A stretch of 64,000 nucleotides of DNA from Pleurocapsa sp. PCC 7319 (GTDB lineage: Bacteria > Cyanobacteriota > Cyanobacteriia > Cyanobacteriales > Xenococcaceae): NCBI RefSeq assembly GCF_000332195.1, contig NZ_KB235922.1:1485902-1549901 (forward strand), in the 5' to 3' direction. How positions within the stretch are numbered: the stretch's first letter is position 1; the number at the start of each line of letters is the position of its first letter. The position numbers were made by a program, and so were the translations under genes. Positions 19,115 to 43,764 of the stretch are shown piece by piece. The notes below the pieces were generated by a model. That model had not been told where the DNA came from. It was given only the letters and a program-made list of their open reading frames with translations, and made no database searches.

Positions 19115-19126
19115 AGGAAATAGAAA

Positions 19127-19780: not shown

Positions 19781-19828
19781 TATGGCTCGGGTCGGACTTG
19801 AACCGACGACCTAGGGCTTATGAGTCCC
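19781..19828 (-). other. attL: displaced 3' fragment of tRNA-Met(CAT)
   Basis: 48 bp identical to 43689-43736, covering the tRNA 3' end through the anticodon loop. This fragment has no 5' half, so it is not a functional tRNA. It is the outer copy left when an element integrated into the tRNA gene and supplied a new 3' end at the other junction. Confidence 0.92.
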
Positions 19829-20038
19829 AAAGTCGATATCGATTTATCAAGGGTTATGCCGTTTGATATAAAATCTTACCCCAAACTTACCCCAGAAAAA
19901 CCTATTTTTCAAGGCTATACTGATAGTCTCTACAAAATAGTTGAGGTAGGTAAAATCGAGATATTAAAAGTATTAAAAGCTTTTTCGGTAGCTTTATGTT
20001 TTGTTAACCATTGTTTTGATACGAAATCAAAATAGCTA

Positions 20039-20084
20039 GAGAAATATTTTCTAGCTGGCTGGAGAAATATTTTCTAGCTGGCTG
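20039..20084. repeat. Two exact tandem 23-bp repeats
   Basis: GAGAAATATTTTCTAGCTGGCTG is repeated head to tail (20039-20061, 20062-20084), with the beginning of a third copy. Each contains a partly palindromic AAATATTT core. It lies inside the element between attL and the toxin-antitoxin pair; its function is unknown. The flanking 19829-20196 stretch holds no recognised gene. Confidence 0.6.
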
Positions 20085-20196
20085 GAGAATGAGGAGCGCA
20101 GCTTGTCATTCGGAAGGCAGCAACCCGAAGCGTTAGCGGAAGTAGTTTATCCATTTGTAGCTATAATTGATACGTAAAATTGATCAATACAATGAA

Positions 20197-20484
20197 ATGA
20201 CAGCTACAGTTAGCATTGATAGTTTGATTGCATCTAGTCCAGATATTTGTGGAGGAAGACCTAGAATTGATGGCTCTCGGATTACAGTTCAATATGTTGT
20301 CAATGAAATTAAAGCAGGTGTTACTCCAGAAGAAATCTTAGAAGATAAACCTCATTTAACTCTTGCTGGCATCTATACTGCGATCGCATATTATTATGCT
20401 AATAAAGAATTACTAGATACTGAATTTGCTGAATATGATCGAGAATGCGACCGATTGATAGCAGAATATACAACAGGTAAATAG
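20197..20484 (+). CDS. DUF433 family antitoxin
   Basis: 95 residues from ATG 20197; a start ten codons earlier is less likely. DUF433 proteins are small winged-HTH-like antitoxins: SSPDICGGRPRIDGSRITVQ, then IKAGVTPEEILEDKPHLTLA, AIYTAIAYYYAN. It pairs with the DUF5615 gene starting two bases after its stop. The pair resembles VapBC-type modules. A truncated near-identical copy lies at 15699-16025. Located just inside attL, it may stabilise the element. Confidence 0.85.
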   Translation: MTATVSIDSLIASSPDICGGRPRIDGSRITVQYVVNEIKAGVTPEEILEDKPHLTLAGIYTAIAYYYANKELLDTEFAEYDRECDRLIAEYTTGK

Positions 20485-20486
20485 TT

Positions 20487-20855
20487 GTGAGCCGAATTTG
20501 CCTTTATCTAGATGAAGATACGATTAAAAATGCATTAGTTAAAGCTCTGCGAAATGCCGATCTCGATGTTATGACTGTAGCTGATATAGGGATGTTGGGC
20601 TATTCCGATGAAGAACAATTAATCTGGTCAACAGAACAGAAACGAGTGATTTACAGTTTCAATATCGGCGATTTTTGTAGATTACATCACGATTATATGA
20701 TTCAAGGCAAAACTCATACGGGAATTATTCTGGCACCACAACAGCGATATTCAATTGGTCAACAGGTAACAGGATTGCTCAAGTTAGTAACTGCTATATC
20801 CGCTGAAGATATGACAAATCAACTGATATTTTTAAATTCTTATTTGAAAAATTAG
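20487..20855 (+). CDS. DUF5615 (PIN-like) toxin
   Basis: 122 residues, GTG start two bases after the antitoxin stop. The DUF5615 PIN-like fold is recognisable: ICLYLDEDTIKNALVKALRN with a conserved Asp/Glu pair, MTVADIGMLGYSDEEQLIWS, and VIYSFNIGDFCRLH with another Asp. It is probably a metal-dependent ribonuclease toxin controlled by the DUF433 partner. It converges on the 3' end of the interrupted dnaB gene. Confidence 0.83.
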   Translation: MSRICLYLDEDTIKNALVKALRNADLDVMTVADIGMLGYSDEEQLIWSTEQKRVIYSFNIGDFCRLHHDYMIQGKTHTGIILAPQQRYSIGQQVTGLLKLVTAISAEDMTNQLIFLNSYLKN

Positions 20856-21036
20856 TCATCTAAAAAAGCGATCGCAATCCGAATAAAATCATCAAAAAAG
20901 CGACCGCTCTAATCTTCAAGCAAATTCTTTAAGAGAACGAATCATACCAGAAGACTTATCAAATAAAACTTCTGCTTTTCCTGTATTTCCGTGTCTTGCT
21001 TTTGCCAAAATTAACTCTAGAATTCCTGGCTGCGAA

Positions 21037-22876
21037 CGGGGATTTCGCAGGTTGAGGAATAAAGATAGGGTATTAAAATGAAGAGTTAAAATAACCTCTG
21101 AATGGATATCCAAGTTAAAAACTTAGACCACCTAGGTATAGTAGCAGGAATCGTTGACCAAATAGGATTAGTTGAAGAAATAGATAAGCAAATAGAGCAA
21201 CATCCCCAACAAATCATCAGCACAGGACAAGTGGTGAAAGCTATGATTCTCAATGGATTAGGGTTTGTCAGTGCACCGCTGTACTTATTTAGTGAGTTTT
21301 TCGTTGGCAAAGCAACGGAACATCTTTTAGGAGAGGGGATTAAACCAGAACATCTGAATGATGACCGAATTGGAAGAGCTTTGGATAGCTTGTCGAATCA
21401 AGGATTAACGACCTTATTCACTAGCATTGCGATGTTAGCCCATCAAAGATTTAACCTTTTGACCAAGAGTCTACATCTAGATTCGAGTAGCTTTAGTTTG
21501 GAGGGAAGCTATGAAATAGAAACCGCAGATGAATCAACCGAATCAACCGAATCAATCGAATCCGTCAAGATAACTTACGGCTACTCCAAAGATCATCGAC
21601 CAGATTTAAAACAATTCATGATGGATGTTATCTGTACAGGAGATGGAGATGTCCCCCTGTTTGTGAGGATAGGAAATGGAAACGAATCCGACCGTGCTGT
21701 TTTTGCTCAATTGATCGAGCAATTTAAACAGGAATGGAATCTGGATAGTATCTACGTTGCTGACAGTGCGCTTTACAGTTCAGCAAATATTCAACAACTG
21801 GGAGAGTTAAACTGGATTACCCTTGTCCCTCGAAGTATAAAAACCGCCAAAATCTTAGCTGAATCAATCGAAGGCGAGGTGTTGGTTGAGAGCAAAATTC
21901 CAGGTTATCGTATTGCATCATGTTGTTGCGATTATGGAGGAGTTCATCAACGTTGGCTAATTATTGAAAGTGAAAAGCGTCTTAATAGCGATCTCAAGCA
22001 ACTCGAAAAGCGACTAACAAAACAACTTAAAATAGCGACAAGTGAACTTAAGTCACTGATGAGACAAGATTTTGCCTGTGCTGCCGATGCCAAAAAAGCG
22101 GCGGAAAAACTTAGCCGCAACTGGAAATATCATTCCTTAGAATTAATCGACATTGAGACTGATGCTCACTACACAAAGGCAGGACGACCTAGGAAAAATC
22201 AGTCTCCTGAACATTTTACCTATCGTATCAAGGCTCAAGTTGTTCCTGTAGATGAGGTAATTGAGATTGCCAGAAGACAAGCAGGAAGGTTTGTTCTCGC
22301 TACTAATGTTCTCGATGAGAAGATTCTGACTAATGATGAGATTTTAACTGAATATAAAGGTCAGCAAAGTTCGGAAAGGGGTTTCCGATTCTTGAAAGAT
22401 CCTCTGTTTTTTACTTCGAGTGTCTTTTTGAATACTCCTCGGCGAGTGGCAGCCCTGGCAATGGTTATGGGTTTGTGTTTGCTAGTTTATACTCTCGGTC
22501 AACGTCAATTAAGACAAGTCTTAGCTCATTCCGAGCAGACTATTCCCAACCAACTCAAGAAACCCACCTCTACTCCTACACTAAGATGGGTATTTCAGTG
22601 TTTTCAGGCGGTTCATCTTGTTCATTTGAATCATCAAATACAAGTTTCTAATCTTACTGACACCCGACTGAAGATCTTACGGTTTTTTGGAAACCCTTGC
22701 CAAAAATATTATTTAATCTGCTGACTGACCTGCAAAATGTCCGATTCAAATCCATTGCCAAGAGATGGTTTTGGCGATCTAAGTCCCAATCATGTCATCG
22801 CGAGAAATCAAAAATATTTCAAGGCAATGGTTTTGAATGAAATTCATTAGAAGTATAATGCAACTCGCGAAATGTG
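21037..22876 (+). mobile_element. IS1634-type insertion sequence in dnaB (about 1.84 kb)
   Basis: It is flanked by the 9-bp target duplication GGCTGCGAA (21028-21036 and 22877-22885). The ends share an imperfect inverted repeat around ATTTCGC-N2-GTTG. Precise removal restores the helicase reading frame, which fixes the ends to within a base or two. Confidence 0.88.
21102..22724 (+). CDS. IS1634-family transposase
   Basis: 540 residues, full length for the IS1634 branch of IS4-like DDE transposases. An N-terminal part (LDHLGIVAGIVDQIGLVEEI, VKAMILNGLGFVSAPLYLFS) leads to a catalytic region with LHLDSSSFSLEG (first Asp), YVADSALYSS (second Asp), and YKGQQSSERGFRFLKDP (Glu motif). The C-terminal LRFFG is typical. 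The frame is intact, so the element may still be able to move. It is inserted opposite in orientation to dnaB. Confidence 0.92.
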   Translation: MDIQVKNLDHLGIVAGIVDQIGLVEEIDKQIEQHPQQIISTGQVVKAMILNGLGFVSAPLYLFSEFFVGKATEHLLGEGIKPEHLNDDRIGRALDSLSNQGLTTLFTSIAMLAHQRFNLLTKSLHLDSSSFSLEGSYEIETADESTESTESIESVKITYGYSKDHRPDLKQFMMDVICTGDGDVPLFVRIGNGNESDRAVFAQLIEQFKQEWNLDSIYVADSALYSSANIQQLGELNWITLVPRSIKTAKILAESIEGEVLVESKIPGYRIASCCCDYGGVHQRWLIIESEKRLNSDLKQLEKRLTKQLKIATSELKSLMRQDFACAADAKKAAEKLSRNWKYHSLELIDIETDAHYTKAGRPRKNQSPEHFTYRIKAQVVPVDEVIEIARRQAGRFVLATNVLDEKILTNDEILTEYKGQQSSERGFRFLKDPLFFTSSVFLNTPRRVAALAMVMGLCLLVYTLGQRQLRQVLAHSEQTIPNQLKKPTSTPTLRWVFQCFQAVHLVHLNHQIQVSNLTDTRLKILRFFGNPCQKYYLIC

Positions 22877-24116
22877 GGCTGCGAAGTACCTGGATCGTAA
22901 TATTCATCGCGATAGGCAAAGATGATATTATCTGCCACCATCTCCAGAATCCCAGACTGAGAAAGATCTGACATCATCGGACGCTTATTCTGTCTGCCCT
23001 CTACTCCCCTGTTAACTTGAGATAGAGCTAAAACTGGGACATTCAATTCTCCTGCTAATTGATACAGTCCTCTGCCGACATCACCCAATTCATAACTGCG
23101 ATTACCACCGTTATCTGATGCCATCATTTGTAGATAGTCTACGATTACTAAACCAAGTCTCCCTTCTCGTGCTTTAACCTGACGACATTCTGAAGCAATC
23201 CCAGCTACATTTATTCCCCGATTATCATTCATGTATAGAGGTAACTCTACGGCAACCTGAACAATTTTAGAGATACTGTCCATTTCTTCTTCATTGAGAG
23301 AAGACAATCCTGCGCGATGTTGACGAATGCGCTCGACGTGAATCGGGGTCAAACCTAAATGCTGATAACAATCCATCCGACTCATTAAACTCCAAAGTCG
23401 ATACTCTAACTGACTCTTATACATCTCCAAGGAAAAGATAATTACAGGTAACTGATGCTGAATCATCTGCTGAAGAGCCAGATAGAGAGAAATTGCGCTT
23501 TTGCCCATTGATGGTCTAGCAGCCAGAATAGTCAGGCTTCCTGGCTCAAATCCCATCATCAGTTGATCCAGTTCTTTAATTCCAGTAGGATAAATCGGAT
23601 TATTTTCTTCCAGCTGATTAAAAGCAGACATTGCAATCTCGCTATTGTTATCAGTATCTGATTTTATCCTTTGCTGTGTGACACTGAATATTTCTTGTTC
23701 GGATTCGTTTAAAAGCTGTTTTAGTTCAAGACTTAAATCATATCCAAGGTTGACGATTTTATTTCCTGCTTCAATAATTTTACGTCGTTGGTATTTATCC
23801 ATGACCAAATCGACATAGCGCTCGATGTTTACCGCTGAAACTATGCGATTTAATAATTGAGCTAATTTAGCTGTTCCGCCAACTCGATCTAATCTGTCTC
23901 TATCATCCAGATATGTACTGAGTGCCATAAAATCGGTGGGATTGCCTTGATGATGGAGTTTCAAAGCGGTTTGATAAATTTCTTGATGGGAAGAAACAAA
24001 AAAAGCTTTGGGATTTAGTTTGGCTTCAATGTAAGAAATTGCTTTGGGGTCAAATAAAATTCCGCCTAAAATTGCTTCTTCTGCTTCAATATTTGCTGGA
24101 GGTAAGTTGGGTTCTG

Positions 24117-25115
24117 TCATGCTACACCTACCTGGACTGCTTGATTAGCAAAATGGCTTTTCATTCTCAAGTTTCGCAATTGTTCGTAGCCATCAGCAAT
24201 TCGTTTTCCTAAAGGTTGAGAAATTGGTTTCGATTGACTTTCAAGTTGATTGATTCTTTTGAGCTTGTGCTCGGGATTATTCAGGAATCGGTCAAATTTC
24301 TCTTTATCTTGTCTATTCTCAATCTTGACCCGCCCTGACCTTTGCTGTTTTAACTGTTCTTGAAATTTAGCGATCGCCTTTTTTTTGTCTTCATCAGGAA
24401 TTGAACTTGAATGAGAGTCGAGTTTACGAGCTTTTTTTTCCTCTTGATACTTGTGATAATAAACTTCCCAGCGATTCTGCCCAGCTTTTGTCTTACTGGC
24501 TAACCAAGCTTCAAGATCATTTACTGGTTGACTGAAGTTTTGAATTGCCTTTTTGACAAACTTGAAAAAATTCTCGCTCTCGCCTTCTGAGAGAGTCTTT
24601 TTAAAGTCTATATAAGTCTTAGAGATCTTAGGAGTTTGAAACCTTATCTCTAACTTGGTTTCAGGCGACGGTGGCGACACTGGTGACGCTAAAGTGACAT
24701 GGGTGTCGTCTAGGCGATCCTGAGGTCGCTCAAACGATCCTGGTGTCGCCGAGACGATCTCAGTGTCGTCTGACGATCCTGGTGTCACCACCTCGGATTT
24801 ATCTTTAATTTGAGGGCAATGAGCATTTTCAGATACTGATTTAGATTTCATCTGATACTTAAATTTGTTAATTACCAGTTCGATTAAGTTCTCTTTCTGC
24901 AACTTAACCAAAGCTCGCTGAACCGTGCGACGGCTAATTCCCAAATCTTTAGCAATTTCATGGGTATTGGCTTCGATTAGCTTTCCCCCAAAAGGATCGT
25001 TGGTTTTCAGCCATAGATAAACCGAAAGCTCTGACTGAGTAAGAATTTGATTGAGTTTCAGAAACTCTTGATGCTGAAGTGGATAAAACTTTCCAGATAT
25101 TTTTTTGGTAGACAT
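24117..25115 (-). CDS. HTH replication-type protein (plasmid/primosome-like)
   Basis: 332 residues from the internal ATG at 25115. The longer start at 25175 would place the coding sequence across an 11-bp palindrome. Residues 10-90 hold a winged HTH: FYPLQHQEFLKLNQILTQSE, AKDLGISRRTVQRALVKLQK. The rest is polar, with a low-complexity middle and a lysine-rich coiled-coil C-terminal part. Position and operon with dnaB (stop and start overlap) suggest a replication initiator or helicase loader for the excised element. No named family is certain. Confidence 0.6.
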   Translation of the reverse strand: MSTKKISGKFYPLQHQEFLKLNQILTQSELSVYLWLKTNDPFGGKLIEANTHEIAKDLGISRRTVQRALVKLQKENLIELVINKFKYQMKSKSVSENAHCPQIKDKSEVVTPGSSDDTEIVSATPGSFERPQDRLDDTHVTLASPVSPPSPETKLEIRFQTPKISKTYIDFKKTLSEGESENFFKFVKKAIQNFSQPVNDLEAWLASKTKAGQNRWEVYYHKYQEEKKARKLDSHSSSIPDEDKKKAIAKFQEQLKQQRSGRVKIENRQDKEKFDRFLNNPEHKLKRINQLESQSKPISQPLGKRIADGYEQLRNLRMKSHFANQAVQVGVA

Positions 25116-25145
25116 GACTGAGTGAAGAATATTAATGTAGGGAAT

Positions 25146-25177
25146 CTGTGCCTCTTGAAATGATTTAAGAGGCACAG
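25146..25177. promoter_or_regulatory. Perfect 11-bp inverted repeat between two replication-module genes
   Basis: CTGTGCCTCTT, a 10-base spacer and AAGAGGCACAG. No T-run follows on either strand, so it is more likely an operator, an RNA structure or a replication site than a terminator. It lies between the small HTH gene and the replication-type gene. Confidence 0.55.
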
Positions 25178-25198
25178 CTTTCTTCTGAGAATGAAGAA

Positions 25199-25501
25199 TT
25201 ATTTGGACTTACGACTACGTTTCTTCTGCTGATTAGAGAGCAGAGATGCTAAGTAAGCTTCAATGCCTCTCTGATGAGCTGTTGGATCGCAAATATTAGC
25301 AAACCAATCTCGCAAAAGTCCCTCATGATACCTGATAGTTCGTGAATTCAAGTACTGATAATGGATTCCTAAAGTCCAGTATCTTTTGCGGTAAAGCTTT
25401 AAAGTATGAGTTGAAATTGCAAATATTTTGGCAGCCGCATCTTTGTTTATCCAGTCTTTATGAGCCTCGGATACTATTTTTTGTGCCTCGGAAGTTTTCA
25501 T
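25199..25501 (-). CDS. Small HTH DNA-binding protein (excisionase-like)
   Basis: 100 residues with a MerR/Xis-like helix-turn-helix: WINKDAAAKIFAISTHTLKL, then YRKRYWTLGIHYQYLNSRTI, and a basic tail (NQQKKRSRKSK). Proteins of this shape act as recombination directionality factors or as small replication regulators. It is the first gene of the replication operon. The integrase at 42361 has no closer candidate partner. A role in excision is inference. Confidence 0.55.
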   Translation of the reverse strand: MKTSEAQKIVSEAHKDWINKDAAAKIFAISTHTLKLYRKRYWTLGIHYQYLNSRTIRYHEGLLRDWFANICDPTAHQRGIEAYLASLLSNQQKKRSRKSK

Positions 25502-25810: not shown

Positions 25811-26821
25811 TTGTCAGATAAACCACTATCAGAACTAATCAAAAGAGCAAGAGACCGCAATAATCTTACTCAAACTGCTTTTGGTAAGTTTTTTGAACCT
25901 TCTATAGCTCAACCTACAATAGCTAGATGGGAAAAGGGAGACCTCTTACCAAATAGAAAGCATTTTCCCAAAATAGCTTCATTATTAGATATTACACTGG
26001 AGGAATTTTTAGAACTTGTTAGTAAGCAGTTGAGTGAAGAGGGAATTATTATTCCTAATTTAGATAATGATACATATGTTCCTAATAAGCGACATCTTAA
26101 TGTTCTAAATAAAGGGGTAAAGTCTTGGAATCGCTGGAGAGAAAAAAATTATAGAATCATACCTCAATTAGCTGGTGTAAAACCAAAAGAAGATTACTTG
26201 GATGAAATTGATCTTTATCATGCTGATTTACGGGGTTCATATCTAGAGAACAAATCTCTAAGAGCCTCAAACCTGAGAGGAATAGACCTCAGCGGAGCAA
26301 ATTTGAGTAATGCAGATTTAAGCGATGCCGATCTTTTAGGAGCAAACATTAGTGGAGCAAATTTAACTGGGATAGATTTGACAAATGCCAACTTATGGGG
26401 AGCGAATTTGAGTGAGGCAATTCTGGTAGATGCTATTTTATGTAATGCGAATTTTAAAGAAGCAAATTTGAGTAACGCAGATCTTACTCATGCTGACATG
26501 AGAGGTGCAATTTTAAATCAAGCAAATTTTGAATATGCGATTCTTAAATATTGTTTTGTTTACGGAATATCTGATTGGAATACGAATCTGAATGGTGCAG
26601 TTCAGAAAAAACTTTATATTTGTCCATACAAAACGTACTCCATTTATGTCAATTGCTTAGAGAATGCACGTCTCAAATTGATGGAAATGAATAATCGTGA
26701 TGTCCCCAAAATATCTAAATTGGCAAATGAATTACAAGTTGCTAATGAAGAGAATAAAGCTAGCTTCAAAGAGAAATTAAATAAATTACAAAATTCAGAA
26801 GTAGTTGATAGTGAACCTTAG
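25811..26821 (+). CDS. XRE-type HTH protein with pentapeptide repeats
   Basis: 336 residues with a TTG start. Residues 1-75 form a Cro/C1-type HTH: LSELIKRARDRNNLTQTAFG, QPTIARWEKGDLLPN. Residues 130-250 are a run of pentapeptide repeats (A-N/D-L-x-x), such as ANLSNADLSDADLLGANISG. The C-terminus (YGISDWNTNLNGAVQKKLYI) resembles the segment following pentapeptides in some cyanobacterial TIR-pentapeptide proteins. It is probably a regulator or effector. The next gene starts two bases after its stop, so the two form a unit. The DNA is notably AT-rich compared with the surroundings. Confidence 0.75.
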   Translation: MSDKPLSELIKRARDRNNLTQTAFGKFFEPSIAQPTIARWEKGDLLPNRKHFPKIASLLDITLEEFLELVSKQLSEEGIIIPNLDNDTYVPNKRHLNVLNKGVKSWNRWREKNYRIIPQLAGVKPKEDYLDEIDLYHADLRGSYLENKSLRASNLRGIDLSGANLSNADLSDADLLGANISGANLTGIDLTNANLWGANLSEAILVDAILCNANFKEANLSNADLTHADMRGAILNQANFEYAILKYCFVYGISDWNTNLNGAVQKKLYICPYKTYSIYVNCLENARLKLMEMNNRDVPKISKLANELQVANEENKASFKEKLNKLQNSEVVDSEP

Positions 26822-26822
26822 T

Positions 26823-28001
26823 ATGAGAGCCATTCCTGGAAAAATAAGTATAGAAAAATCTAACGAATATAAGATTTCAAGATGTATTTATTACTTTGAC
26901 CCATCATTTAATCTTTATTGTTTGCTCAGAATATTTGAGTTTCAGTCAAAGACTATAGTAATTGCCAGTCAATTAAATGGTGCTATTCTTTGGGACAATT
27001 ATTTGATCAAATATGTCATGGAAGATTTTGAATTAAATCATGAAAATATATTATATTGGATAAATCATATTGGTTTATTTGATAATTGCATACCAGTCAA
27101 GGAGAAGTTTCTTCATACTACTTTTTCTTATAAAAAAGATTTAATATTTTCCCAGAAGACAGTTGATCTGAAAGAAGAGAATGAAATTAATATTGAATCA
27201 GTTGAAAATTTAATAGAGTCTTCCTTAGAGCCAGTTGAGTTTTGGTTAGGACTCGATCCTAAAGCTAACAATGATTTTAAAAGGAAAAGAGAAGAGAAAA
27301 TCATCAAATTATTGCATCTTTATCTTCAAGATAATCTAAAATATCTGTCTGAGCATGAAAAAACAATAAAAGTCGTATCTCAATCATTACCTGGTGCTAT
27401 TTTCTTTTATCCACATCCAGATAAGTATATTGAATTTATCGAATATTCAGAAATTGAAACTAGTAATGATAAGCTAACAAAAAAAGCATTAAAATACATA
27501 AATAAATCTTTTCCAGATCGAGATTTAGTAATTTGTGTTTGTATTAAAGACTATGCTCCATTTTGTATAATTCTTCCTAAAGAAGATTTTATAAACAGGA
27601 TTGAGATTAGCTTTGATTCATTAAAAAAATCAATTTACTATGAACTAGAAATGTCTAATATAACAAAGTTGAATTTTATTGAACATCAAGAACAAGAAAA
27701 ACTAGAAAAAGTAAGAATACAGAGTTTACTTGAATTCTATTTAAAACCTAATCTTGCTTACTTAATATCAAGATTTGAAAAGGACAAATTATTTTTTGAA
27801 TCAGAATTAGAAACTGTACGTGGTGCGCTTTTTTATTACCCAAAACACAACTATTGTGAATTTTCTCCTCTTAAGGAATTTATTAACAATTCTGAGAAAT
27901 CAGCCATACCATATATAAATAAATACAACGTTAAAACTGAGGTTGTAATTTGCGTTTGCTTTGATGATGAACAAAGCATTTGTAGTATTTTTCCTAAATG
28001 A
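26823..28001 (+). CDS. Unknown protein with an internal two-copy repeat domain
   Basis: About 392 residues from ATG 26823; a TTG six codons earlier overlaps the previous gene. No family is recognised. Two copies of a module of about 110 residues are visible. Copy one spans roughly residues 155-262 (IKLLHLYLQDNLKYLSEHEK, PGAIFFYPHPDKYIEF, LVICVCIKDYAPFCIILPK). Copy two spans about 295-392 (LEFYLKPNLAYLISRFEKD, RGALFYYPKHNYCEF, VVICVCFDDEQSICSIFPK). The N-terminal 150 residues are separate. The codon use is very AT-rich. It is coupled to the HTH-pentapeptide gene, suggesting a partner role. Confidence 0.6.
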   Translation: MRAIPGKISIEKSNEYKISRCIYYFDPSFNLYCLLRIFEFQSKTIVIASQLNGAILWDNYLIKYVMEDFELNHENILYWINHIGLFDNCIPVKEKFLHTTFSYKKDLIFSQKTVDLKEENEINIESVENLIESSLEPVEFWLGLDPKANNDFKRKREEKIIKLLHLYLQDNLKYLSEHEKTIKVVSQSLPGAIFFYPHPDKYIEFIEYSEIETSNDKLTKKALKYINKSFPDRDLVICVCIKDYAPFCIILPKEDFINRIEISFDSLKKSIYYELEMSNITKLNFIEHQEQEKLEKVRIQSLLEFYLKPNLAYLISRFEKDKLFFESELETVRGALFYYPKHNYCEFSPLKEFINNSEKSAIPYINKYNVKTEVVICVCFDDEQSICSIFPK

Positions 28002-34699: not shown

Positions 34700-35326
34700 A
34701 TGACTCAATTAAGTATTTCCAACATAAATAACGATATTTCAGATATTTTGCCAGTAGAGCCTATTTTTGCTCGCCATGAAACTTTTCACCCAAGGTTTGG
34801 CTGGCTTAAAAAAGGATTCGATTTAGCAGAGAAGGATTCGGGTGTTTTTGTACAACCTGATGCGCCAGTTCGCCTGGGGGTGGGAAAGAATATGGTGCGT
34901 TCTATTCGCTATTGGTGTAGAACTTTTAAGGTCTTGCAAGAAGATTGTCCAAGCAAATTCGGGAGGCAGCTTTTTTCTGATCAAGGGTGGGACACATTTC
35001 TTGAAGATCCAGCTTCTCTGTGGTTATTACATTGGAATCTACTCAAGCCCACCTGTGAAGCTGCTGCTTGGTATTTTACTTTTTATATTTTTAGAAAAGT
35101 TGAATTTACTTCAGATGAATTACTAACTGAATTAAGTGAGTGGCAAAATACTCTAGGCAAAAAGGTAGTAGAATCTTCTCTCAAGAAAGATATTTCCTGT
35201 ATTTTGCGAATGTATGGCATGGAAGAGGGTAAAAAAAATTTTCAAGAAGATTCCATTGATTGCCCTTTTTTATTGAAGCAGCAGGAATGGGATTGGCATC
35301 ACGACCTAATCTACAAAGATGGTTAG
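34700..35326 (+). pseudogene. DUF4007 (SspB-like) protein, C-terminally truncated
   Basis: 208 residues. The N-terminal 190 match the DUF4007 family: FARHETFHPRFGWLKKGFDL, LGVGKNMVRSIRYWCRTFKV, and KKDISCILRMYGMEE. To my knowledge DUF4007 includes SspB, the nicking component of single-strand DNA phosphorothioation systems. After DSIDCPF (near 35265) the normal C-terminal third is missing. The frame ends after 20 unrelated codons that overlap the next gene in another frame. The joint lies at a T6 run. It is best read as a deletion product, not a working protein. Confidence 0.65.
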
Positions 35327-37200
35327 AAATTCAAGATTTAATTGCTGATGCTAACTATCTCGATTCAGATAGTCTTAGAGTATTAAAAACTATTGGAATT
35401 TTAAACTTGGTTACTATTACAGGCACAACTAGGGCGACTCGTAATTTAGTCACTCTAGCAATGTGCGATCGCCCTAATGATAGTGAGAGTCTTAAATACT
35501 GGGGTCACGTTGTTGATAAGTTGTTGCAAAGAGGTTTAATTACCCATCGTCGCCAATTAGATGAACTGCGTATTTGGCAAGGCTCTGATTTTAATGTAGA
35601 TAGCGAATTGTCACGATATCTTGAAGAAGAGCGATCTCCTTTATACAGCTTGTTGTCCTCAATTCGACCTCTAAAACCTTTAGTAGCGCAGCGTCATAGT
35701 TATCAAACAGGAACTTTACGTTATTTCGAGCGTAGCTATCTAGATGGTTCTAGTAATTTAAAAGATTTATCTTGTTCTCATCATGACAGTGATGGAATGA
35801 TTGGTTATTGGGTAAATGAAGATTTACCCACTTCTGTTACTCAATCTACTGTCGATGGCAAACCGTTAATTATATTGTGTGCTGCTCAATTAGATTTGTT
35901 ACGTATCCGAGCTAGAGAATATGCTGCACTGAAGAAAATTCAAATTAACGCTTCAGAATTACAAACCGATGGTGTAGCTAGAAGAGAAGTTCGCTATCGA
36001 TTAGCAGAAGCAGAAAAATTACTTTATGAAAGTCTACAATACGCTTTTGAGCTAACCAATGACAGCAATATTTGCTGGATTCAAGGGCAACAAGTAACTA
36101 TTAGCAGCATTACTGACTTTAACGCTGAACTTTCGCGAGTTTGTGATCGCGTTTATCAAAAGAGTCCCAGGATTTGGAATGAACTAATAAACCGTCGAGT
36201 TCTTACTTCTCAAGGGGCTAAAGCGAGGCGAGAATTGATTGAAGCAATGATTGAACGCTCTGACCTAGCAAAATTAGGTTTAGAAGGATATGGTCCCGAA
36301 GTCACAATATATCATTCAATACTCGGTGAAACAGGCATTCATAAAGAAAAGGATGGGTACTGGGATTTTTATCCACCTGACAAAGAATCAGGAGTATGGA
36401 GAGTATGGCAAGCTATTGATGAATTTTGTTTGGCTGCTACAGATCAACCTAGAACTTTAGATCGGCTTTATGAAGTTTTAGCTACTCCTCCCTATGGAAT
36501 AAAGCAGGGTTCAATTCCTATCTTATTAGCTGCTGTATTGCTCTATCACATTGATGATTTAGGAGTTTATCAAGATGGTACTTTTATTCCTATTTTAGGC
36601 GCAGAGCATTTTGAGTTACTACTGAAAGCTCCATCTCGTTTTGCAATTAAGTATTTTGAAGTTGTCGGACTGCGATCGCAGGTATTTAAAGAACTTGAAG
36701 CTATTTTACGTAGCCCTAAAGCTCAAAAATCTGGTAATCTGCGTAATGCTACTCTTTTAACAGTAGTTACACCGTTATATCAGTTTGTTGGTAAACTTCC
36801 TAAATATACAAAGCAAACTAAGCGATTGAGTAAGGAAGCAGTAGCTATTATACAAGCTCTACAACAAACAGTAGAACCAGATGAACTTTTATTTACAGGT
36901 TTGCCCCAAGCTTGTGGTTTGCCTTCTATCGGTACAGATAAAGCTGATGATGGCACGATTGCGAAAAACTTACGGTTAAAACTGATTCAAGTTCTCCGCG
37001 AACTTAATACTGCTTATGACAGTTTGTTAAGCGATTGTCAAAGTTTACTTCAGGATGCTTTTGGGGTTCGCAGAGGCAAACAAAAGCTACGGGAAGATTT
37101 ACGAGTCAGAGCTAATTATTTGGTAGAAAAATGTATTGAACCTACTTTAAAACGTTTCGCTAAAGCTGCGATCGATGAGAAACCTGGAAACAAACATTAA
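35267..37200 (+). pseudogene. C-terminal part of a large AAA-type ATPase (SspC/BrxC-like), N-terminus missing
   Basis: About 644 residues are open to 37200, but no P-loop is present. The visible start (FFIEAAGMGLASRPNLQRWL) corresponds to a point after the motor domain in large ATPases of phosphorothioation and BREX-type defence loci. Supporting stretches are LRVLKTIGILNLVTITGTTR, TVDGKPLIILCAA, LLAAVLLYHIDDLGVYQDGT and LLKAPSRFAIKYFEVVGLRS. It follows the truncated DUF4007 sequence directly in another frame. The likely history is deletion of the 3' end of the DUF4007 gene and the 5' end of this gene. The family link is by pattern memory and needs a profile search. Confidence 0.5.
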
Positions 37201-37224: not shown

Positions 37225-38181
37225 TTAAAAATCAAGTTTATATTCCATACCAGGAATTGAAAATTTAGAAACAATCTTACTCAATTTCCGTTTTGAATCA
37301 GCACTAAGTCGAATAAAAGGCTGATTCTTTTGATTTTTTAAAATACTTCCACAAAGATCAAAACGAGATTCAAGCAACGCAGCTAAAAATTCTACTTCGT
37401 TATCAGAAAAAGCCATTGTATAAAAATTAGCTGAACCACTTGAACAACCATCATCACAAAACCAAACAGCCAGGGCAAATTTTGTTAAATATTTTTTAAT
37501 AAGCTTTTCAGGAATAACTTTTGCTTCTGAATACCATTGTGAATGTAACTCGGTTAGAACTGGATGCACTTTAGTTCTTAACCACCAACCTTGATATCTT
37601 TTTCCTGTTTTTGTATGGGGTGAAGATATACGTTCATTAAAAGAACAAGAAAAATATTGACTGATAAATTTATATTTCCATTCTAAATATTTTTGATTAC
37701 TTCCACCTTCTGCATATCGAGCGTTCCGTTTACTCGAACGTCTTTCTAGACAACCATCACCCAACAAAGAACCTGTTAAAAATTCATATAATTCTTTGTC
37801 AGGTTTTTTCCCTTTATAGTTTAAATAGTGTGACCTTCCTGCTGCTTCTTTTCCTCGTTGTTGCTGTATCCGAGAATTAAGCACGGGAAAATTAGGATAC
37901 AGTATTTTATATTCTTTAGTTGTCAACCCATGTGTTCTTAAGTGGCTATAGCCAATCATTTCAAATTGTTGGTTACACACCGCACAAGTTACCAAATCGA
38001 TATCTTGTTCTTTGAGTTGTTCGATTCGATTGCGTTGGCGACAATAATCAGCTTTGACAGCAAGCTGTTTTTTATAAATAGCCTGACATTCTGGACTTCC
38101 ACAGGTACGACGACAAGCAGGATGAACTAAATTAGGCTCAACTTTTTTACTACAAACCAGACAATTAAAAGGTTGCACCAT
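37225..38181 (-). CDS. LAGLIDADG-type homing endonuclease with N-terminal zinc-finger region
   Basis: 318 residues. Residues 1-45 hold a CxxC...CxxxC cluster (FNCLVCSKKV, RRTCGSPECQ). Residues 65-110 resemble a MucR/Ros-type C2-His finger (VTCAVCNQQFEMIGYSHLRT, HGLTTKEYKILYP). From about 135 two LAGLIDADG motifs are seen, FLTGSLLGDGCLERR and FALAVWFCDDGCSSG, which supply the two acidic active-site residues. It is freestanding, not inside an intron or intein that I can see. It is inserted on the opposite strand between the ATPase remnant and the HTH-HNH gene. Confidence 0.8.
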   Translation of the reverse strand: MVQPFNCLVCSKKVEPNLVHPACRRTCGSPECQAIYKKQLAVKADYCRQRNRIEQLKEQDIDLVTCAVCNQQFEMIGYSHLRTHGLTTKEYKILYPNFPVLNSRIQQQRGKEAAGRSHYLNYKGKKPDKELYEFLTGSLLGDGCLERRSSKRNARYAEGGSNQKYLEWKYKFISQYFSCSFNERISSPHTKTGKRYQGWWLRTKVHPVLTELHSQWYSEAKVIPEKLIKKYLTKFALAVWFCDDGCSSGSANFYTMAFSDNEVEFLAALLESRFDLCGSILKNQKNQPFIRLSADSKRKLSKIVSKFSIPGMEYKLDF

Positions 38182-38289: not shown

Positions 38290-39675
38290 ATGGGAAAAGC
38301 AGGTCAAGCATTAAGACAGGTATTAGAGGCGTACGACATCAACCAAAGCGCACTAGCAACAGGTTTAGGTGTTGAGCGTTCGATTGTTTTTCGTTGGTAT
38401 CATGAACAAACAGACCCAACGGCTGAAACAGTGGCTCAAATTGTCCAAGCCTTACAAATCATCAATATATCTGCTGCAAAAGACTTTATACAAGTTTATT
38501 TAGGCGATTTAACACAAACAGTTAATGCAACTATCAGCCAAGATTTACCACCATCAGATCGAGTTAATGTCTCGGTTTTATCACAAATCTTTGATAAGAC
38601 TACTAATTCTTATAAATATCTTTTCTTCCTTTCACTTTTGGATATTCTTAAAAGAAGAAACTTCGATACTTTATCACCCGTTACTTTTCAAGAAATTATT
38701 ATCGAGATTATAGCTAATGCTTGGTATCCCCATAATTATTTCAAATTGTCTTTTGGAACACAAGACCAGATTGCTAATAAATTAGATTCTCTTGATTTAG
38801 TAATTAGCGAACCAATATTACAATTTAGAGATGCAGATAAAAAACTTTTAAGAAAAACAATTCAAGGTCAGAACCTTGATGATATTGTCAAAGATATTGG
38901 GCGATACGTTCCATTTCGTCTAATTCGTCCATTTTTTACCCATAAAACTAGGGGATTAAAAGATTATGACGTTAATCCCAGTGTATGCGAGCTTGCTAAT
39001 AATCAATTTGAAGTAACTAAACCGCTTTATTGTTTTGATTCAACATCATACAAAGACTGTACGGCGATTATTTTGCATCAGGACTGGATAGAATATATTG
39101 CTGAAAATTATTCTATTGTTCGGGGTTGGGTATCTTGGGAATGGTTGAATTATATGCAATCAAAAAATATTAATATTCCTAATATAGTTAGTAAATTATT
39201 TATTCCACAACAGAGAGATTCTTTAAGTAAACAGACAAAATATTGGAAGCTAATTTTAAATCATCAAAAAATTAAATGTATATATTCTCAAATTGAATTA
39301 GACAAAAATAGTATTTCATTAGATCATTATTTACCTTGGTCGTTTGTAGCTCATGACCAATTATGGAATTTAATCCCTACAACTCCATCTGTTAACTCTT
39401 CTAAATCTAATAATATTCCTGCGGAAAAATATTTTACTGATTTTGTAAAATTACAGCATCAAGGTTTAACAATTTACGCTCAAAATAACTCGGAAAGAAA
39501 ATGGCATAACTATGCAGAAGATTACATCGCAGAATTGAAAGTAAATAAAGCTGATGATTTATTAAATATTGATATTCTTAATAATGCTTATCAAGCTACA
39601 CTACAGCCTTTAGTTTCTTTAGCAGCAATTCAAGGCTTTAAACAAAATTGGATTTATCAGAGCAACCAAAACTAA
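38290..39675 (+). CDS. XRE HTH - HNH endonuclease fusion protein
   Basis: 461 residues. Residues 1-65 are a Cro/C1-type HTH (LEAYDINQSALATGLGVERS, FRWYHEQTDPTAETVAQIVQ). The middle (FLSLLDILKRRNF, IIIEIIANAWYPHNYFKLSF) is typical of HNH proteins in defence islands. The HNH core is at about 335-385: CIYSQIELDKNSISLDHYLP, then WSFVAHDQLWNLIPTTPSVN and SSKSNNIP. It is likely a DNA nuclease, perhaps the restriction arm of the neighbouring modification-type locus. The HTH would let it repress its own promoter or target specific sites. Frame and motifs look intact. Confidence 0.82.
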   Translation: MGKAGQALRQVLEAYDINQSALATGLGVERSIVFRWYHEQTDPTAETVAQIVQALQIINISAAKDFIQVYLGDLTQTVNATISQDLPPSDRVNVSVLSQIFDKTTNSYKYLFFLSLLDILKRRNFDTLSPVTFQEIIIEIIANAWYPHNYFKLSFGTQDQIANKLDSLDLVISEPILQFRDADKKLLRKTIQGQNLDDIVKDIGRYVPFRLIRPFFTHKTRGLKDYDVNPSVCELANNQFEVTKPLYCFDSTSYKDCTAIILHQDWIEYIAENYSIVRGWVSWEWLNYMQSKNINIPNIVSKLFIPQQRDSLSKQTKYWKLILNHQKIKCIYSQIELDKNSISLDHYLPWSFVAHDQLWNLIPTTPSVNSSKSNNIPAEKYFTDFVKLQHQGLTIYAQNNSERKWHNYAEDYIAELKVNKADDLLNIDILNNAYQATLQPLVSLAAIQGFKQNWIYQSNQN

Positions 39676-39676
39676 T

Positions 39677-39997
39677 TTATTTAGTCCACAACAATCGTAT
39701 TTTTTTAGCGAATCCGCCTTTTTCTTTTCGCTTTTGTTCTTGTCTAGCTAAAACTAAATCTTTATCTATTTTTAAGTTAGTCAGTATTCCATCTATAACT
39801 TCATAAATATCGGCTAATTCTTCTACTAAATTATCTGGTTTAGCCTCTGCTGCTTCTTTAGCTTCTTCTATCAGCTTATCTAGTAAAGCTTGATAATACT
39901 CCGACTGTGACATTGTTTTTACTTCATATTCTCGTCCAGCTTGACGGATAATTTCAGGGATGCGATCGCGAATGAGTTTACTATGTTTTTGGCGCAT
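39677..39997 (-). CDS. MazG-like / phosphoribosyl-ATP pyrophosphohydrolase-like protein
   Basis: 106 residues of the all-alpha NTP pyrophosphohydrolase group: KLIRDRIPEIIRQAGREYEV, LDKLIEEAKEAAEAKPDNLV, EELADIYEVIDGIL, with the EEL/E..D acidic metal-binding residues. Such proteins hydrolyse non-canonical nucleotides and are common cargo of mobile islands. The start codon lies only seven bases from the divergent cysteine desulfurase start, leaving no room for two promoters. That points to a rearranged junction. Confidence 0.8.
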   Translation of the reverse strand: MRQKHSKLIRDRIPEIIRQAGREYEVKTMSQSEYYQALLDKLIEEAKEAAEAKPDNLVEELADIYEVIDGILTNLKIDKDLVLARQEQKRKEKGGFAKKIRLLWTK

Positions 39998-40004
39998 AAT
40001 TAAT

Positions 40005-41090
40005 ATGACAACTACATTTGGTAATGCTAGCAGTACAGACCATATCTACGGCGACGAAGCAGCAAAAGCCTTATCCAAAGCTCGCTGTCAAGTTGCTGAA
40101 TTAGTCGGCGCATCATCAAAAGAAGTGATTTTTACCTCTGGGGCAACAGAAAGCATTAACTTAGCTATTCAAGGAACTATATTTAAGCATATTGATAACA
40201 AAAATCAACCTTGCATTGCTTTCTCCCCACTGGAACACAAAGCAGTATTAGATACCTGTCAGGCGATCTCCAAAAAAAGACTAGCCAATCTTATTTTTTT
40301 TCAAGTTGACTCCTTTGGGAGATTAGACCTTGAACATCTCGAACAAGTTTGTAAACAAGGGCTTTCATTGCTATGTGTGATGGCAGCTAACAACGAAATC
40401 GGCAATATTTACCCAGTTCGAGAAATTGGTGAGATAGCTCAAAAATATCAGATTCCTTTTCTTTGTGATGCTTCCCAAGCAGTAGGAAAAATACCAATCG
40501 ATTTTGAACAGTGGGGAATAACTTATCTAGCCATCTCTGGTCATAAATTCTATGCACCCAAAGGAGTTGGAGGATTAATTGTTAGAAAAGGACATCATCT
40601 AGAACCGATTATCTTTGGTGGTGGTCATCAAAAAGGATTGCGATCGGGAACGCTTAATGTTCCTGGGATTGTTGGTTTAGGAGAAGCTTGTCGATTAAGA
40701 CAATTAGAAATGGAAAAAGATGAACAGGCGATCGCCACACTTCGAGATAAATTACAGAAGTTGCTACAAGACAAAATACCTAACTTAATTGTCAACGGAG
40801 ATATTAATTCACGACTAGCAGGCAACCTCCATATTTCCATTCCTGGGATTCCTAATAGTGCCATTATTGCTAGAGTACCTAACCAATTAGCAATTTCTAC
40901 TGGTTCTGCCTGTTCTTCTGGAGTAGCAGCACCATCTCATGTTCTGCGAGCCATGAATTTATCCGATGACGAGATCGAAGGCTCACTAAGAATCGGACTA
41001 GGCAAATTTACCACTGACAAAGAGATAGAAACATCAGCAGAAATTCTTTCTCATGTAGTCGATTTAATCTTGCAATCAATGGTAATTTGA
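40005..41090 (+). pseudogene. Cysteine desulfurase (SspA/DndA/IscS-like), 5' truncated
   Basis: About 361 residues from ATG 40005. PLP-enzyme motifs are intact: VIFTSGATESINLAIQG, HKAVLDTC, FLCDASQAVGKIPIDF, the PLP-binding Lys in SGHKFYAPKGVG, and the sulfur-carrying Cys loop STGSACSSG. The first 25 or so residues of the family (the YLDxNATT strand and helix) are missing; the sequence starts at the equivalent of TTFGNASS. With the seven-base gap to the divergent gene, this looks like a deletion breakpoint. The enzyme would normally supply sulfur, here plausibly to the phosphorothioation-type locus. It may be inactive or poorly expressed. Confidence 0.7.
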
Positions 41091-41720: not shown

Positions 41721-41733
41721 GAGGAAAATAGCA

Positions 41734-42159
41734 GTGATTCAAAACGAACATCAGTATAAAGTAACTCAAAATAAACTCAAAGACTTAGAACAAGCATTAG
41801 TAGAACTGTTACAAATTAAAGATACTTTGCGTCCTCGCCAGTTTTCATCACGTAAGAATGGCTTACAATTAATGATTGGCAATTTAAGCAAGGAAATTGA
41901 AGAATATAACGCTTTAAAACAACAACAGACACCGATCAAGATTGCATCAATTCAAGAATTGCCATTAGCTCTGATTAGAGCGCGAATTGCAATGGGCATG
42001 ACTCAAAAAGAACTAGCAGAGAAAATGGGAGTCAAGGAGCAACAAGTTCAAAGGGATGAAGCTAATCAATATAGTTCGGCTGGATTTCAGCGTATATCAG
42101 CAGTAGCAGAAGCTCTAGATATTAAAATTCAAGAGACTAGTGTTTTGCTGAAGTCTTAA
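41734..42159 (+). CDS. XRE-family antitoxin-like regulator
   Basis: 141 residues, GTG start. The first 70 residues are a helical coiled-coil part (LKDLEQALVELLQIKDTLRP). Residues 80-135 hold a Cro/C1-type HTH (RARIAMGMTQKELAEKMGVK, EQQVQRDEANQYSSAGFQRI). HigA/MqsA-like antitoxins have this build. It pairs with the DUF6932-like gene 13 bases upstream and is the last plus-strand gene before the integrase. Confidence 0.75.
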   Translation: MIQNEHQYKVTQNKLKDLEQALVELLQIKDTLRPRQFSSRKNGLQLMIGNLSKEIEEYNALKQQQTPIKIASIQELPLALIRARIAMGMTQKELAEKMGVKEQQVQRDEANQYSSAGFQRISAVAEALDIKIQETSVLLKS

Positions 42160-42360
42160 CTTTAAATATTTTAATCAAGTAAATTATTGGTAGAAAATTG
42201 GTAGATAAAGTTATTGATAACAACTAAAAACTAATTGTAGATAGCTATTCAAGAATTATTTGCTCACTTTGGGGTAGTGGGGAGATGATAATAGGTCGAA
42301 TTCCAGCTTTTAAAAACTTCTCAATCTTTACTATTTTATACCTATCAATTTTTATCTAAA

Positions 42361-43536
42361 TTAAAATTCAGGAACGAATAACTCCCGCTTAGTTCCTGCA
42401 TAATGGCGATAGATAATTTCTGGTGAGTTGCCTACTAGGCGAGCAACATCCTTAGCATCAAGACCATGTTCTAAAGCTAATGTAATAAAAGTATGCCGAG
42501 TATTGTATTGAGGCAAATATTTCTCTAGCTTTCGCTCTTTAACTAGTGCCTTAATCACAGGTTTCCAAATACGATTTGAAAAATTGTGCGTGTCCAAAAT
42601 CCGCCCTCTTGGGCTGGGGAAAACTAACAAATCTGATAATAACTTCTCAGGCTTGATGCTTAGTAAGAAACTCTGAAGTTTTGGATTACAAGGAAAAATT
42701 CTAGTTTTTTTGTTTTTAGTCGCTCCTCTAATTCCAGTGTCACAGGGAATTGCTTCTATAAAGTGAATCTTGCTACAGTCAATGGTGATATGTTTCCATT
42801 GAAGTGCAACTGCTTCTTCAGGTCGGCACCCAGTCATAAAAAGAAAATTGACATAGGGAGCATAGTAAGAATGAGAGAAAGGAGAATATTTTGAGGAATA
42901 TGTATTGTTTTCTAAAGCTGCTATGATCGCGTCTCTCTCTCCAGAACTAAATGGCTCTCTACTACTATCTCTAACAGTTTTTTTTATGTCCCCAGCCATT
43001 CCTTCAAAAAAATTTTCATCAATTAAGCCTGACTTGACTCCCCATTTAAAACAAGCATTAAGTTGAACTAAAGTACGGCGTGCAACTTCACTACTATATT
43101 TACTTAGTAACCAATCTCTAGCACTTATCCCATCTTCTATATTTTTGGGCATAAGCTTCAGTCGCTTGGCAATCTTGCCATAATCTCTAGTGAGGGTACT
43201 AGCTGAAACTTGAGGAGCTTTATATTTGGTATATTTTTCCCAAAGATCCGTAAATGAAAATGAAACTTTTGGGGTAGATATTGGGGTAAGAGTATCGATC
43301 GCAGTTTGGGGTCTATATTTTGCTAAGGAAGGGTCAAACCGCTCGTAAGCGATATCAGCCTCAATAACCTTAGCCTTAGCCTCTGCTGCTTTGCGGTTTA
43401 GCTTACTATCTGGTAAGCCTAGTGAAAGGTAGTGACGCTTACCACTATATGAGAAGACAAGCTGTAATCGACTATTGGAAACTTTAATGCGGACAGAACC
43501 TTTGGGGGCTTTGCTTTTTGAGCTTTTGGCGTACAT
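42361..43536 (-). CDS. int: Tyrosine recombinase (integrase) of the tRNA-Met element
   Basis: 391 residues. The N-terminal arm-type region (RIKVSNSRLQLVFSYSGKRH) and SAM-like core-binding domain are followed by a catalytic domain. It has Arg I in MTGCRPEEAVALQWKHI, the Arg II box YNTRHTFITLALEHGL, a His/Gly VARLVGNSPE, and the nucleophile Tyr in YRHYAGTKRE. It should catalyse integration and excision at the 48-bp repeat. It ends about 155 bases from the tRNA gene, as in classic tRNA-integrated islands. The reading frame is intact. Confidence 0.95.
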   Translation of the reverse strand: MYAKSSKSKAPKGSVRIKVSNSRLQLVFSYSGKRHYLSLGLPDSKLNRKAAEAKAKVIEADIAYERFDPSLAKYRPQTAIDTLTPISTPKVSFSFTDLWEKYTKYKAPQVSASTLTRDYGKIAKRLKLMPKNIEDGISARDWLLSKYSSEVARRTLVQLNACFKWGVKSGLIDENFFEGMAGDIKKTVRDSSREPFSSGERDAIIAALENNTYSSKYSPFSHSYYAPYVNFLFMTGCRPEEAVALQWKHITIDCSKIHFIEAIPCDTGIRGATKNKKTRIFPCNPKLQSFLLSIKPEKLLSDLLVFPSPRGRILDTHNFSNRIWKPVIKALVKERKLEKYLPQYNTRHTFITLALEHGLDAKDVARLVGNSPEIIYRHYAGTKRELFVPEF

Positions 43537-43688
43537 CGAGTAGATCTATATTTTTTGTTGGGGAAACACTCATGCTCTAATTAGAATTTACCCCAAACTT
43601 ACCCCAATTTTCAATCTAAACTACTCTAAAATTACCCAATAAAAAACGTAGGAGTAACGCAATTAAAGCTTGTATGCCTTGAAATGGT

Positions 43689-43736
43689 TATGGCTCGGGT
43701 CGGACTTGAACCGACGACCTAGGGCTTATGAGTCCC
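43689..43736 (-). other. attR: 48-bp repeat within the intact tRNA-Met gene
   Basis: Identical to 19781-19828. It spans the tRNA 3' end to the anticodon loop, so the element-borne copy rebuilds a full tRNA on integration. Confidence 0.92.
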
Positions 43737-43764
43737 CCGCTCTAACCAACTGAGCCACCGAGCC
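43691..43764 (-). tRNA. tRNA-Met (anticodon CAT)
   Basis: 74 nt. The acceptor stem GGCTCGG pairs with CCGAGCC, followed by discriminator A. The D arm is TGGCTCAGTTGGTTAGAGC. The anticodon loop is CTCATAA with anticodon CAT. The T arm carries GGTTCAAGTCC. CCA is not encoded. It is the insertion site of the 23.9-kb element. An initiator or a lysidine-type tRNA-Ile2 identity is not excluded. Confidence 0.93.

Follow-up and report, generated by a model that had tools for sequence, protein, structure and literature searches.

A 23.9-kb element bounded by tRNA-Met repeats in Pleurocapsa sp. PCC 7319: a probable integrative mobilizable element with a MobF relaxase, one of a cyanobacterial family

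The 64,000-nucleotide stretch of the Pleurocapsa sp. PCC 7319 genome analysed here (contig NZ_KB235922.1, positions 1,485,902 to 1,549,901; in the following, the window) contains a tRNA-Met gene and, about 24 kb away, a second copy of its 3' part, with genes for an integrase, a relaxase and a coupling protein between the two. The question raised by this locus is what kind of element is enclosed by the repeats, and by which route it may move. The preferred answer, with a probability of roughly 0.85, is a helper-dependent integrative mobilizable element (IME) of 23.9 kb, belonging to a cyanobacterial family. It is preferred because a relaxase and a coupling protein are present, while no mating-channel gene is recognised and no VirB4-like match is found in the host.

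The boundaries are defined by an exact 48-bp direct repeat, found at 19781-19828 (distal attachment, or att, copy, minus strand, representing the displaced 3' part of the tRNA) and at 43689-43736 (proximal copy, minus strand, within the intact gene), with a start-to-start spacing of 23,908 bp. The repeat corresponds to the 3' part of a tRNA-Met(CAT) gene (43691-43764, minus strand), the sole tRNA identified by ARAGORN in the window. The genome of the strain (7.39 Mb in 10 contigs, labelled G000) was scanned with a 76-bp tRNA query at an E-value of 0.001, and two matches were obtained, the full copy and the 48-bp fragment; chance is ruled out for an exact 48-bp match in such a position. A tyrosine integrase with an Arm-binding domain (42361-43536, minus strand; Pfam; PHROG 1, 1e-43) begins some 155 bp away from the intact tRNA-Met, and the geometry is the usual one for tyrosine integrases using the 3' half of a tRNA gene. 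When the outer flanks are fused through a single repeat copy, the tRNA-Met gene is restored intact; no tRNA results at the predicted circle junction. This arrangement shows site-specific integration into the 3' half of tRNA-Met, by which the repeat was created and the tRNA rebuilt. The G+C content is not distinctive, being 36.9% in the element versus 39.7% and 38.6% in the flanks.

An earlier note on this DNA had claimed the perfect repeat over the 3' half of tRNA-Met, the integrase beside the intact gene, and an order and polarity by which the element supplies a new tRNA 3' end. The repeat was recovered at the same coordinates, and the other two claims also held. The extent given there, 19781-43764, is right for its start; the element proper ends at 43736, and 43737-43764 belongs to the chromosome, as the 5' portion of the tRNA gene.

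The genes within these limits were analysed as a set of 23 open reading frames (ORFs): 20 were scanned with Pfam, two (at 41286 and 41734) with PHROGs only, and one, of 71 residues, lay outside the scans; PHROG profiles were run on 10 of the 23. A MobF relaxase-helicase of the TrwC type (29561-32482, minus strand; 973 residues in an intact frame; Pfam TrwC 7e-78) matches TrwC of plasmid R388 at an E-value of 4e-85, with 27% identity over most of its length, and also matches, by sequence, the PDB structures of TraI and TrwC. It is followed by a TrwB-type coupling protein, or T4CP (28002-29561, minus strand; Pfam TrwB_AAD_bind 1e-87; 27% to R388 TrwB). On the other side of an intergenic region, a three-gene operon is read from the plus strand: it encodes a StbA-like protein (32806-33183), a StbB/MobD-like ATPase of the ParA type with a KGGVGKT motif (33183-33938) and a third product assigned by conserved synteny (33938-34525). 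Replication functions are represented by a DnaB-like replicative helicase (22819-24120, minus strand; Pfam 2e-63; PHROG 19, 1e-92) and a winged-helix protein resembling replication initiators or helicase loaders (24117-25175, minus strand; PHROG DnaD-like loader 1.6e-9, O-like 2.6e-6). The frames of the integrase, relaxase, coupling protein, DnaB, initiator and stb-like genes are all open. The relaxase, coupling protein, replication and stb-like genes announced in the earlier note are therefore all inside the element, and the term "mobilizable" used there suits a locus with a relaxase and a coupling protein, and with no mating-channel gene recognised in the 20 Pfam-scanned and two PHROG-scanned ORFs of the 23.

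These features are those of a relaxase-bearing IME (iMOB) in the definition given in PMC11389934: an integrase with direct repeats as chromosomal boundaries, a relaxase of its own, and no recognised mating-pair-formation system. The definition also includes an origin of transfer, for which a conserved candidate motif is described below. The type IV secretion system (T4SS) genes that mark an integrative conjugative element (ICE) were not recognised. Capsid, portal and packaging genes, which would mark a prophage or a satellite, are absent from the 20 ORFs scanned with Pfam. A prophage or phage satellite moving in capsids, for instance of the tycheposon kind, could account for the DnaB, the O/DnaD-like gene and the phage-type integrase, all of which match PHROG profiles, yet no capsid or portal family appears in either the Pfam or the PHROG scans. 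The sole virion labels are weak (terminase small subunit, 0.0015, on a helix-turn-helix (HTH) protein; tail fiber, 0.0079, on a pentapeptide protein), and the full relaxase, the coupling protein and the conserved motif described below point to conjugation, so that this explanation is considered highly improbable.

The IME reading gains most from the recurrence of the same core elsewhere. In a set of 60 genomes (own genome included, labelled G000 onward; G009 is taken to be Chondrocystis sp. NIES-4102 on the strength of a plasmid that matches exactly, coordinates included), 23 contain a match to the window relaxase at an E-value of 1e-10, with at least 65% identity in several relatives. The gene order DnaB - initiator - xis - pentapeptide protein - TrwB - TrwC - gap - stbABC is found, whole or in part, in other loci, and in the 10 sister loci with a full or near-full relaxase the identity of this protein to the window ranges over 66-81%; for StbB the range is 81-93%. 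One sister, in the same genome, occupies tRNA-Phe between exact 51-bp repeats (27,124 bp); another, in Chondrocystis sp. NIES-4102, occupies tRNA-Pro between repeats matching at 45 of 47 bp (28,677 bp). No distal repeat was found within the examined stretch for G016 (at tRNA-Pro), G021 and G025. Further hosts belong to Xenococcaceae, Hyellaceae, Hyella, Hydrococcus and Pleurocapsa. Sisters bounded by tRNA repeats make this a real family of elements; its core of replication, relaxase, coupling protein and stb-like genes is common to members residing in other tRNA genes. Relatives carrying the same 24 kb without flanking repeats, which the earlier note held to speak against its claim, did not turn up, as no examined locus carries the same 24 kb.

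If a mobilizable MobF plasmid had been trapped a single time, by accident, at a site resembling a tRNA, there would be no family at all. In the plasmid collection, the nearest relaxase matches (49%, Gloeothece) do come from cyanobacterial plasmids, and plasmids of cyanobacteria also carry StbB/MobD-like genes; against a single capture, the same core and tRNA-adjacent integrases recur in several hosts and at three tRNA genes, and we hold this explanation to be unlikely. Several core-bearing contigs are too short to distinguish a plasmid-borne from an integrated state.

The integrases of six loci group by tRNA target, with identities of 93% (Met), 89% (Phe) and 73% (Pro) within groups and of 32-43% between them. 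In the two elements of the Pleurocapsa genome the relaxases are 81% identical versus only 40% for the integrases, while an integrase 93% identical to that of the window lies beside the tRNA-Met of G021, another genus. In G021 integrase and relaxase are on separate contigs and possibly not in one element, and the G025 integrase contig holds a relaxase fragment only. The position of the integrase also shifts: it is at the cargo end in the window element, whereas G009, G016 and the sister in the own genome have it at the DnaB or xis end. The DnaB-integrase junction of the own-genome sister is matched by stretches from the left end of the element in the window. Taken together, the grouping by tRNA, the shifted end and the junction matches indicate that the integration cassette was exchanged or turned; integration modules were thus exchanged within the family. 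Outside the distal att copy of the tRNA-Phe sister (L043 6128-6262 and 6427-6477) a 45-residue N-terminal integrase fragment, 49% identical, is found, as if an older element had once stood in tandem at the same tRNA.

A candidate site for the start of transfer was sought in the gap between relaxase and stbA (32483-32805), aligned over 12 loci. The most conserved block of 17 columns corresponds to 32652-32668 (AGGGTGCATCAGGTGTG; mean 0.975), the next being the start of the relaxase gene (0.951). This 17-bp motif, within AAGGGTGCATCAGGTGTGG at 32651-32669 (plus strand), is a predicted origin of transfer (oriT), with AGGTGTGG as candidate nick stretch; it resembles, we assume, the nick region of the F plasmid (GGTGT/GG). 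A degenerate 17-bp pattern found 17 sites in 13 of the 60 genomes, own included, and the reversed pattern, used as control, none. Sixteen of the 17 sites adjoin a relaxase/stb module; 12 had served to derive the pattern, and of the five others four adjoin relaxase or stbA homologues, one of these (G019 contig C257) being a near-duplicate of a contig already used. In two Gloeothece plasmids, pP742403 and Cy782205, whose relaxase is 49% identical, a hairpin and then TTAGGTGTG, with four mismatches and ending in AGGTGTG, immediately precede mobF and are oriented as in the window. A relaxase-bound hairpin is not claimed for the window: a 4-bp stem (GCAC-GTGC or CACC-GGTG) directly precedes the core in only four of the 12 loci, the window not among them, in folds computed with RNA parameters at 25 C. 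From the orientation of the motif, the stb side would lead and the relaxase gene would enter last. A short inverted repeat, CACT-N3-AGTG (32715-32726), is a predicted regulator site upstream of stbA, by alignment and position; it is kept in most of the 12 loci, absent in G016 and altered in G003. The exact motif also occurs in G019 contig C630 (L158 3275-3291), with no relaxase or stb homologue near; an oriT-only element mobilised in trans is not claimed there, as a single 17-bp match can be due to chance.

Among the closest described arrangements is that of R388 (IncW), where, as in the window, a MobF relaxase and a TrwB-type coupling protein lie on one side of an intergenic region and a divergent three-gene stb operon on the other. 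The window element differs in the lack of TrwA, no TrwA-like gene being present in the 323 bp between the relaxase and stbA starts, and in the relaxase gene adjoining the intergenic region instead of coming last; it also differs in having no recognised T4SS and in being integrated by a tyrosine integrase. Its StbA resembles that of R388 weakly (hhalign probability 48.5 over 43 columns) and is assigned mainly by position. Its StbB is of the KGGVGKT/MobD-like type, a motif that fits the classical group in PMC3098194, and aligns with R388 StbB at Walker A only; firm orthology was therefore dropped and the name StbB/MobD-like used instead. By hhalign it matches, with a probability of 99.8, a Pseudanabaena MobD-like protein that adjoins a MOBP relaxase. 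At an E-value of 1e-10, StbB-like matches occur in 66 of 388 genomes drawn at class level; the four of the own genome reach 494-545 bits, whereas no match in any other genome exceeds 135, a gap to be read with the even draw, which included few members of the own family. In R388, according to PMC3098194, StbA and StbB tune stability versus transfer.

A helper providing the mating channel was searched for in the 60 genomes. PF03135 had matches in none of them and in only one of 14 controls, and was dropped as a helper detector, being too insensitive; PF19044 gave matches in 11 genomes, three of them over the cut-off, in ORFs of about 500-1075 residues, and in seven of the 14 controls. A VirB4-like protein from a plasmid of Chondrocystis NIES-4102, used as query, retrieved relatives in 20 of the 60 genomes at an E-value of 1e-20 and in 114 plasmid records, 54 of them typed as conjugative; its gene suggests that helpers occur in the genus. 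No association between VirB4-like genes and the oriT motif is claimed. The same searches bear on the idea that the element is a complete ICE with mating-channel genes too divergent to be recognised. It would agree with the element-encoded coupling protein, with the few ORFs lacking a known family, and with the divergence of cyanobacterial channel genes, missed by PF03135 throughout though VirB4-like proteins exist; it is contradicted by the failure of the cyanobacterial query to match the own genome, and, the relaxase apart, no ORF of the element has the size of VirB4 and none matches such a family. We regard it as very improbable.

An empty site was not found: no relative stretch is syntenic on both sides, in searches with the tRNA, its 5' side and the response-regulator neighbour (60 genomes) and with the left flank, 17000-19780 (30 genomes), own included in both; flank proteins were also compared with 20 stretches from relatives. 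The response-regulator gene is present in congeners, where seven stretches around it hold no tRNA, and the tRNA-Met stretches of relatives do not share the flanks of the element. The congeners G004 and G009 have a single tRNA-Met match each and no fragment. Repeats of the own genome abound in the left flank; 17000-17636 has identical copies at three other places (contigs C3, C4 and C7) and is a recently spread repeat near the element.

Fragments of the tRNA-Met 3' part, 48-49 bases long, occur in G022 (88%) and G033 (86%), at L183 611-659 and L184 8618-8665, in genomes with no close relative of the window integrase; G016 has a 30-base match. In G033 the intact tRNA is about 19 kb from the fragment, with one DnaB-like fragment between them and no other core genes in the stretch. 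The G022 fragment has a 34% identical integrase nearby, again with no other core genes in the stretch, and a family core is on another contig of that genome. A tRNA fragment in strains lacking the element had been named in the earlier note as evidence against it; such fragments do exist, and for G022 the element family is present elsewhere in the genome. They suggest other, different elements using the same site.

Besides the missing empty site, several results weigh against a mobile, helper-dependent element. Neither PF03135, PF19044 nor the Chondrocystis query has a match in the own genome, so no helper is visible in the host, and a helper plasmid would have to arrive; the identity of that query as VirB4 is itself inferred, with 21.6 bits for PF19044 at a cut-off of 25.8. 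A VirB4-like gene is present in eight of the 13 motif-bearing genomes and absent from five. The motif search with four mismatches also returned sites elsewhere, and in the plasmids of Acaryochloris and Nostoc, two of the four cyanobacterial MobF plasmids examined, the DNA upstream of mobF showed no oriT-like motif. The excisionase-like small protein (25199-25501, minus strand) matches Pfam DUF1233 with 19.4 bits, below the cut-off of 22, and has no PHROG match, although it is kept in sister elements. The relaxase gene of the own-genome sister has one stop, and two further core remnants in the genome show decay. Finally, relaxase divergence roughly tracks host genus (75-81% in congeners, 66-70% elsewhere), so that old residence of the core is as likely as its recent spread between genera.

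Some of these points could mean that the element is a decaying, immobile island, with an intact-looking relaxase and no more excision or movement. This concerns present activity only, is compatible with identity as an IME, and is possible, at odds that we place well below even. It draws on the broken Ssp cargo described below, an inserted insertion sequence (IS), the two remnants and the stop-bearing sister, and the helper VirB4 not found in the host; in the opposite sense, the core frames listed above are open and the att copies are identical over 48 bp, versus a G009 pair differing at 2 of 47.

If the window element acts as an IME, its movement, as predicted from gene content, would start with excision: the integrase and the small excisionase-like protein would recombine the two repeats and release a circle. 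This circle would be replicated and held by the DnaB/initiator pair and the Stb-like proteins. TrwC would nick it at the predicted oriT, the stb side leading, and the element's TrwB-like coupling protein would dock the complex at the channel supplied by a conjugative plasmid resident in the cell. In the recipient, the circle would integrate into tRNA-Met.

The cargo lies on the stb side of the predicted oriT and is a broken Ssp phosphorothioation system. The sspB remnant (34700-35326, plus strand; PADLOC SspB 1e-79, profile 2-180 of 295) lacks its C-terminal part, and the sspC remnant (35260-37200, plus strand; PADLOC SspC 3e-275, profile 370-1012 of 1104) the first 370 residues or so; a cysteine desulfurase follows (39960-41090, plus strand), SspA/DndA-like (PADLOC DndA 8e-128, SspA 2e-127) or NifS/IscS-like, with NCBIfam NifS, IscS and DndA each below their own cut-offs. 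Sister cargo, checked in part only, differs: in the sister of the own genome it includes HmaC/DUF499-like, HmaB/DUF1156-like and PbeA/helicase-like proteins, in G009 HmaA, HmaB and HmaC with near-whole profile matches, and in G012 a PbeA-like helicase (the only gene checked there, with a label common to many defence helicases). The two large proteins checked in G016 have no PADLOC match and look metabolic. Defence-type genes are thus present in four of the five loci with cargo checked. Anti-phage cargo on ICEs and IMEs is already known, e.g. from Vibrio europaeus (among the cases in PMC12824646). We tentatively propose, as an idea more doubtful than probable, a plasmid-phage chimera lineage that alternates between a tRNA-integrated state and a replicating plasmid partitioned by Stb, switches tRNA target by swapping integrase cassettes, uses a self-encoded coupling protein to hitchhike on conjugative plasmids of cyanobacteria, and distributes exchangeable anti-phage systems placed on the side of oriT that leads; if true, defence genes of the Pleurocapsa group would have in it a main vehicle.

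MobF IMEs as such are known. According to a 2017 review, a MobF or MobH relaxase was used by no canonical IME then known, and the stem "cyanobact" is absent from its main text (PMC5704250). Subsequently, 24 putative MOBF IMEs were delineated in Mesorhizobium (PMC8627217); their sites are tRNA genes, tRNA-Met and tRNA-Phe among them, and other genes. Like the window element, they are integrated, encode a MOBF relaxase and lack channel genes; most are of the TraACD type, resembling Ti plasmids, whereas the window element combines TrwC, TrwB and stbABC-like genes with a phage-like replication pair in a cyanobacterium. The earlier note had called cyanobacterial MobF elements poorly described; this stands for cyanobacteria, for which no description of MobF IMEs was found in literature searches (most matching papers being judged from listings), and not for MobF IMEs at tRNA genes in general. 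Integrated conjugation-related elements of the phylum include four ICEs, all in Cyanothece, in a 2011 survey (PMC3158045); they encode a T4SS, unlike the window element. Cyanobacterial MobF plasmids (the two of Gloeothece, with those of Acaryochloris and Nostoc) encode relaxases 33-49% identical to that of the window among the matches listed, and their four regions, unlike the window, have no annotated TrwB-stb set beside mobF. The new part is the R388-like module and the cyanobacterial family; the mechanism is ordinary. With this family, a second kind of MobF IME, resembling R388, is added to those known, in a phylum for which the literature searches found few descriptions of integrated conjugation-related elements; the family may explain the movement of defence systems among Pleurocapsa-group cyanobacteria. 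It also offers concrete targets (attP junctions, the 17-bp predicted nick site, the coupling protein), and its oriT and integrase could become genetic tools.

The remaining genes of the element are of lesser weight. Next to the distal repeat, a DUF433 gene (20167-20484, plus strand; PF04255, 8e-21) and a DUF5615 gene (20487-20855, plus strand; PF18480, 1e-15) are, presumably, antitoxin-like and toxin-like partners; a 300-bp stretch of the pair (20271-20570) has a 99% identical copy outside the element at 15699-15998, 4.6 kb away. The IS transposase (DUF4277/DDE by Pfam; 21102-22724, plus strand) is a passenger, with a 100% protein-identical copy at about G000:C7:2713406-2715025, near an stb remnant. 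Between the excisionase-like and coupling protein genes, an HTH and pentapeptide-repeat regulator-like protein (25811-26821, plus strand; Pfam), kept in sister elements, is followed by a conserved protein (26805-28001, plus strand) with a 52% homologue in G009 and no family match in Pfam, PADLOC, NCBIfam or PHROGs. Within the cargo are a LAGLIDADG endonuclease (37225-38181, minus strand; Pfam 1e-38), a MazG/PRA-PH-like protein (39677-39997, minus strand; Pfam PRA-PH 0.0016, below cut-off) and an HTH and HNH_4 endonuclease-like protein (38290-39675, plus strand; Pfam HNH_4 5e-10), the latter 461 residues long and combining a Cro-type HTH with an HNH_4 domain similar to the HNH region of Cas9. 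An HTH regulator (41734-42159, plus strand; PHROG 1373, 1e-9) adjoins the integrase and has a 78% homologue beside the G021 integrase. Outside the element, a 95% identical direct repeat of 176 bp is found at 6307-6482 and 6855-7030.

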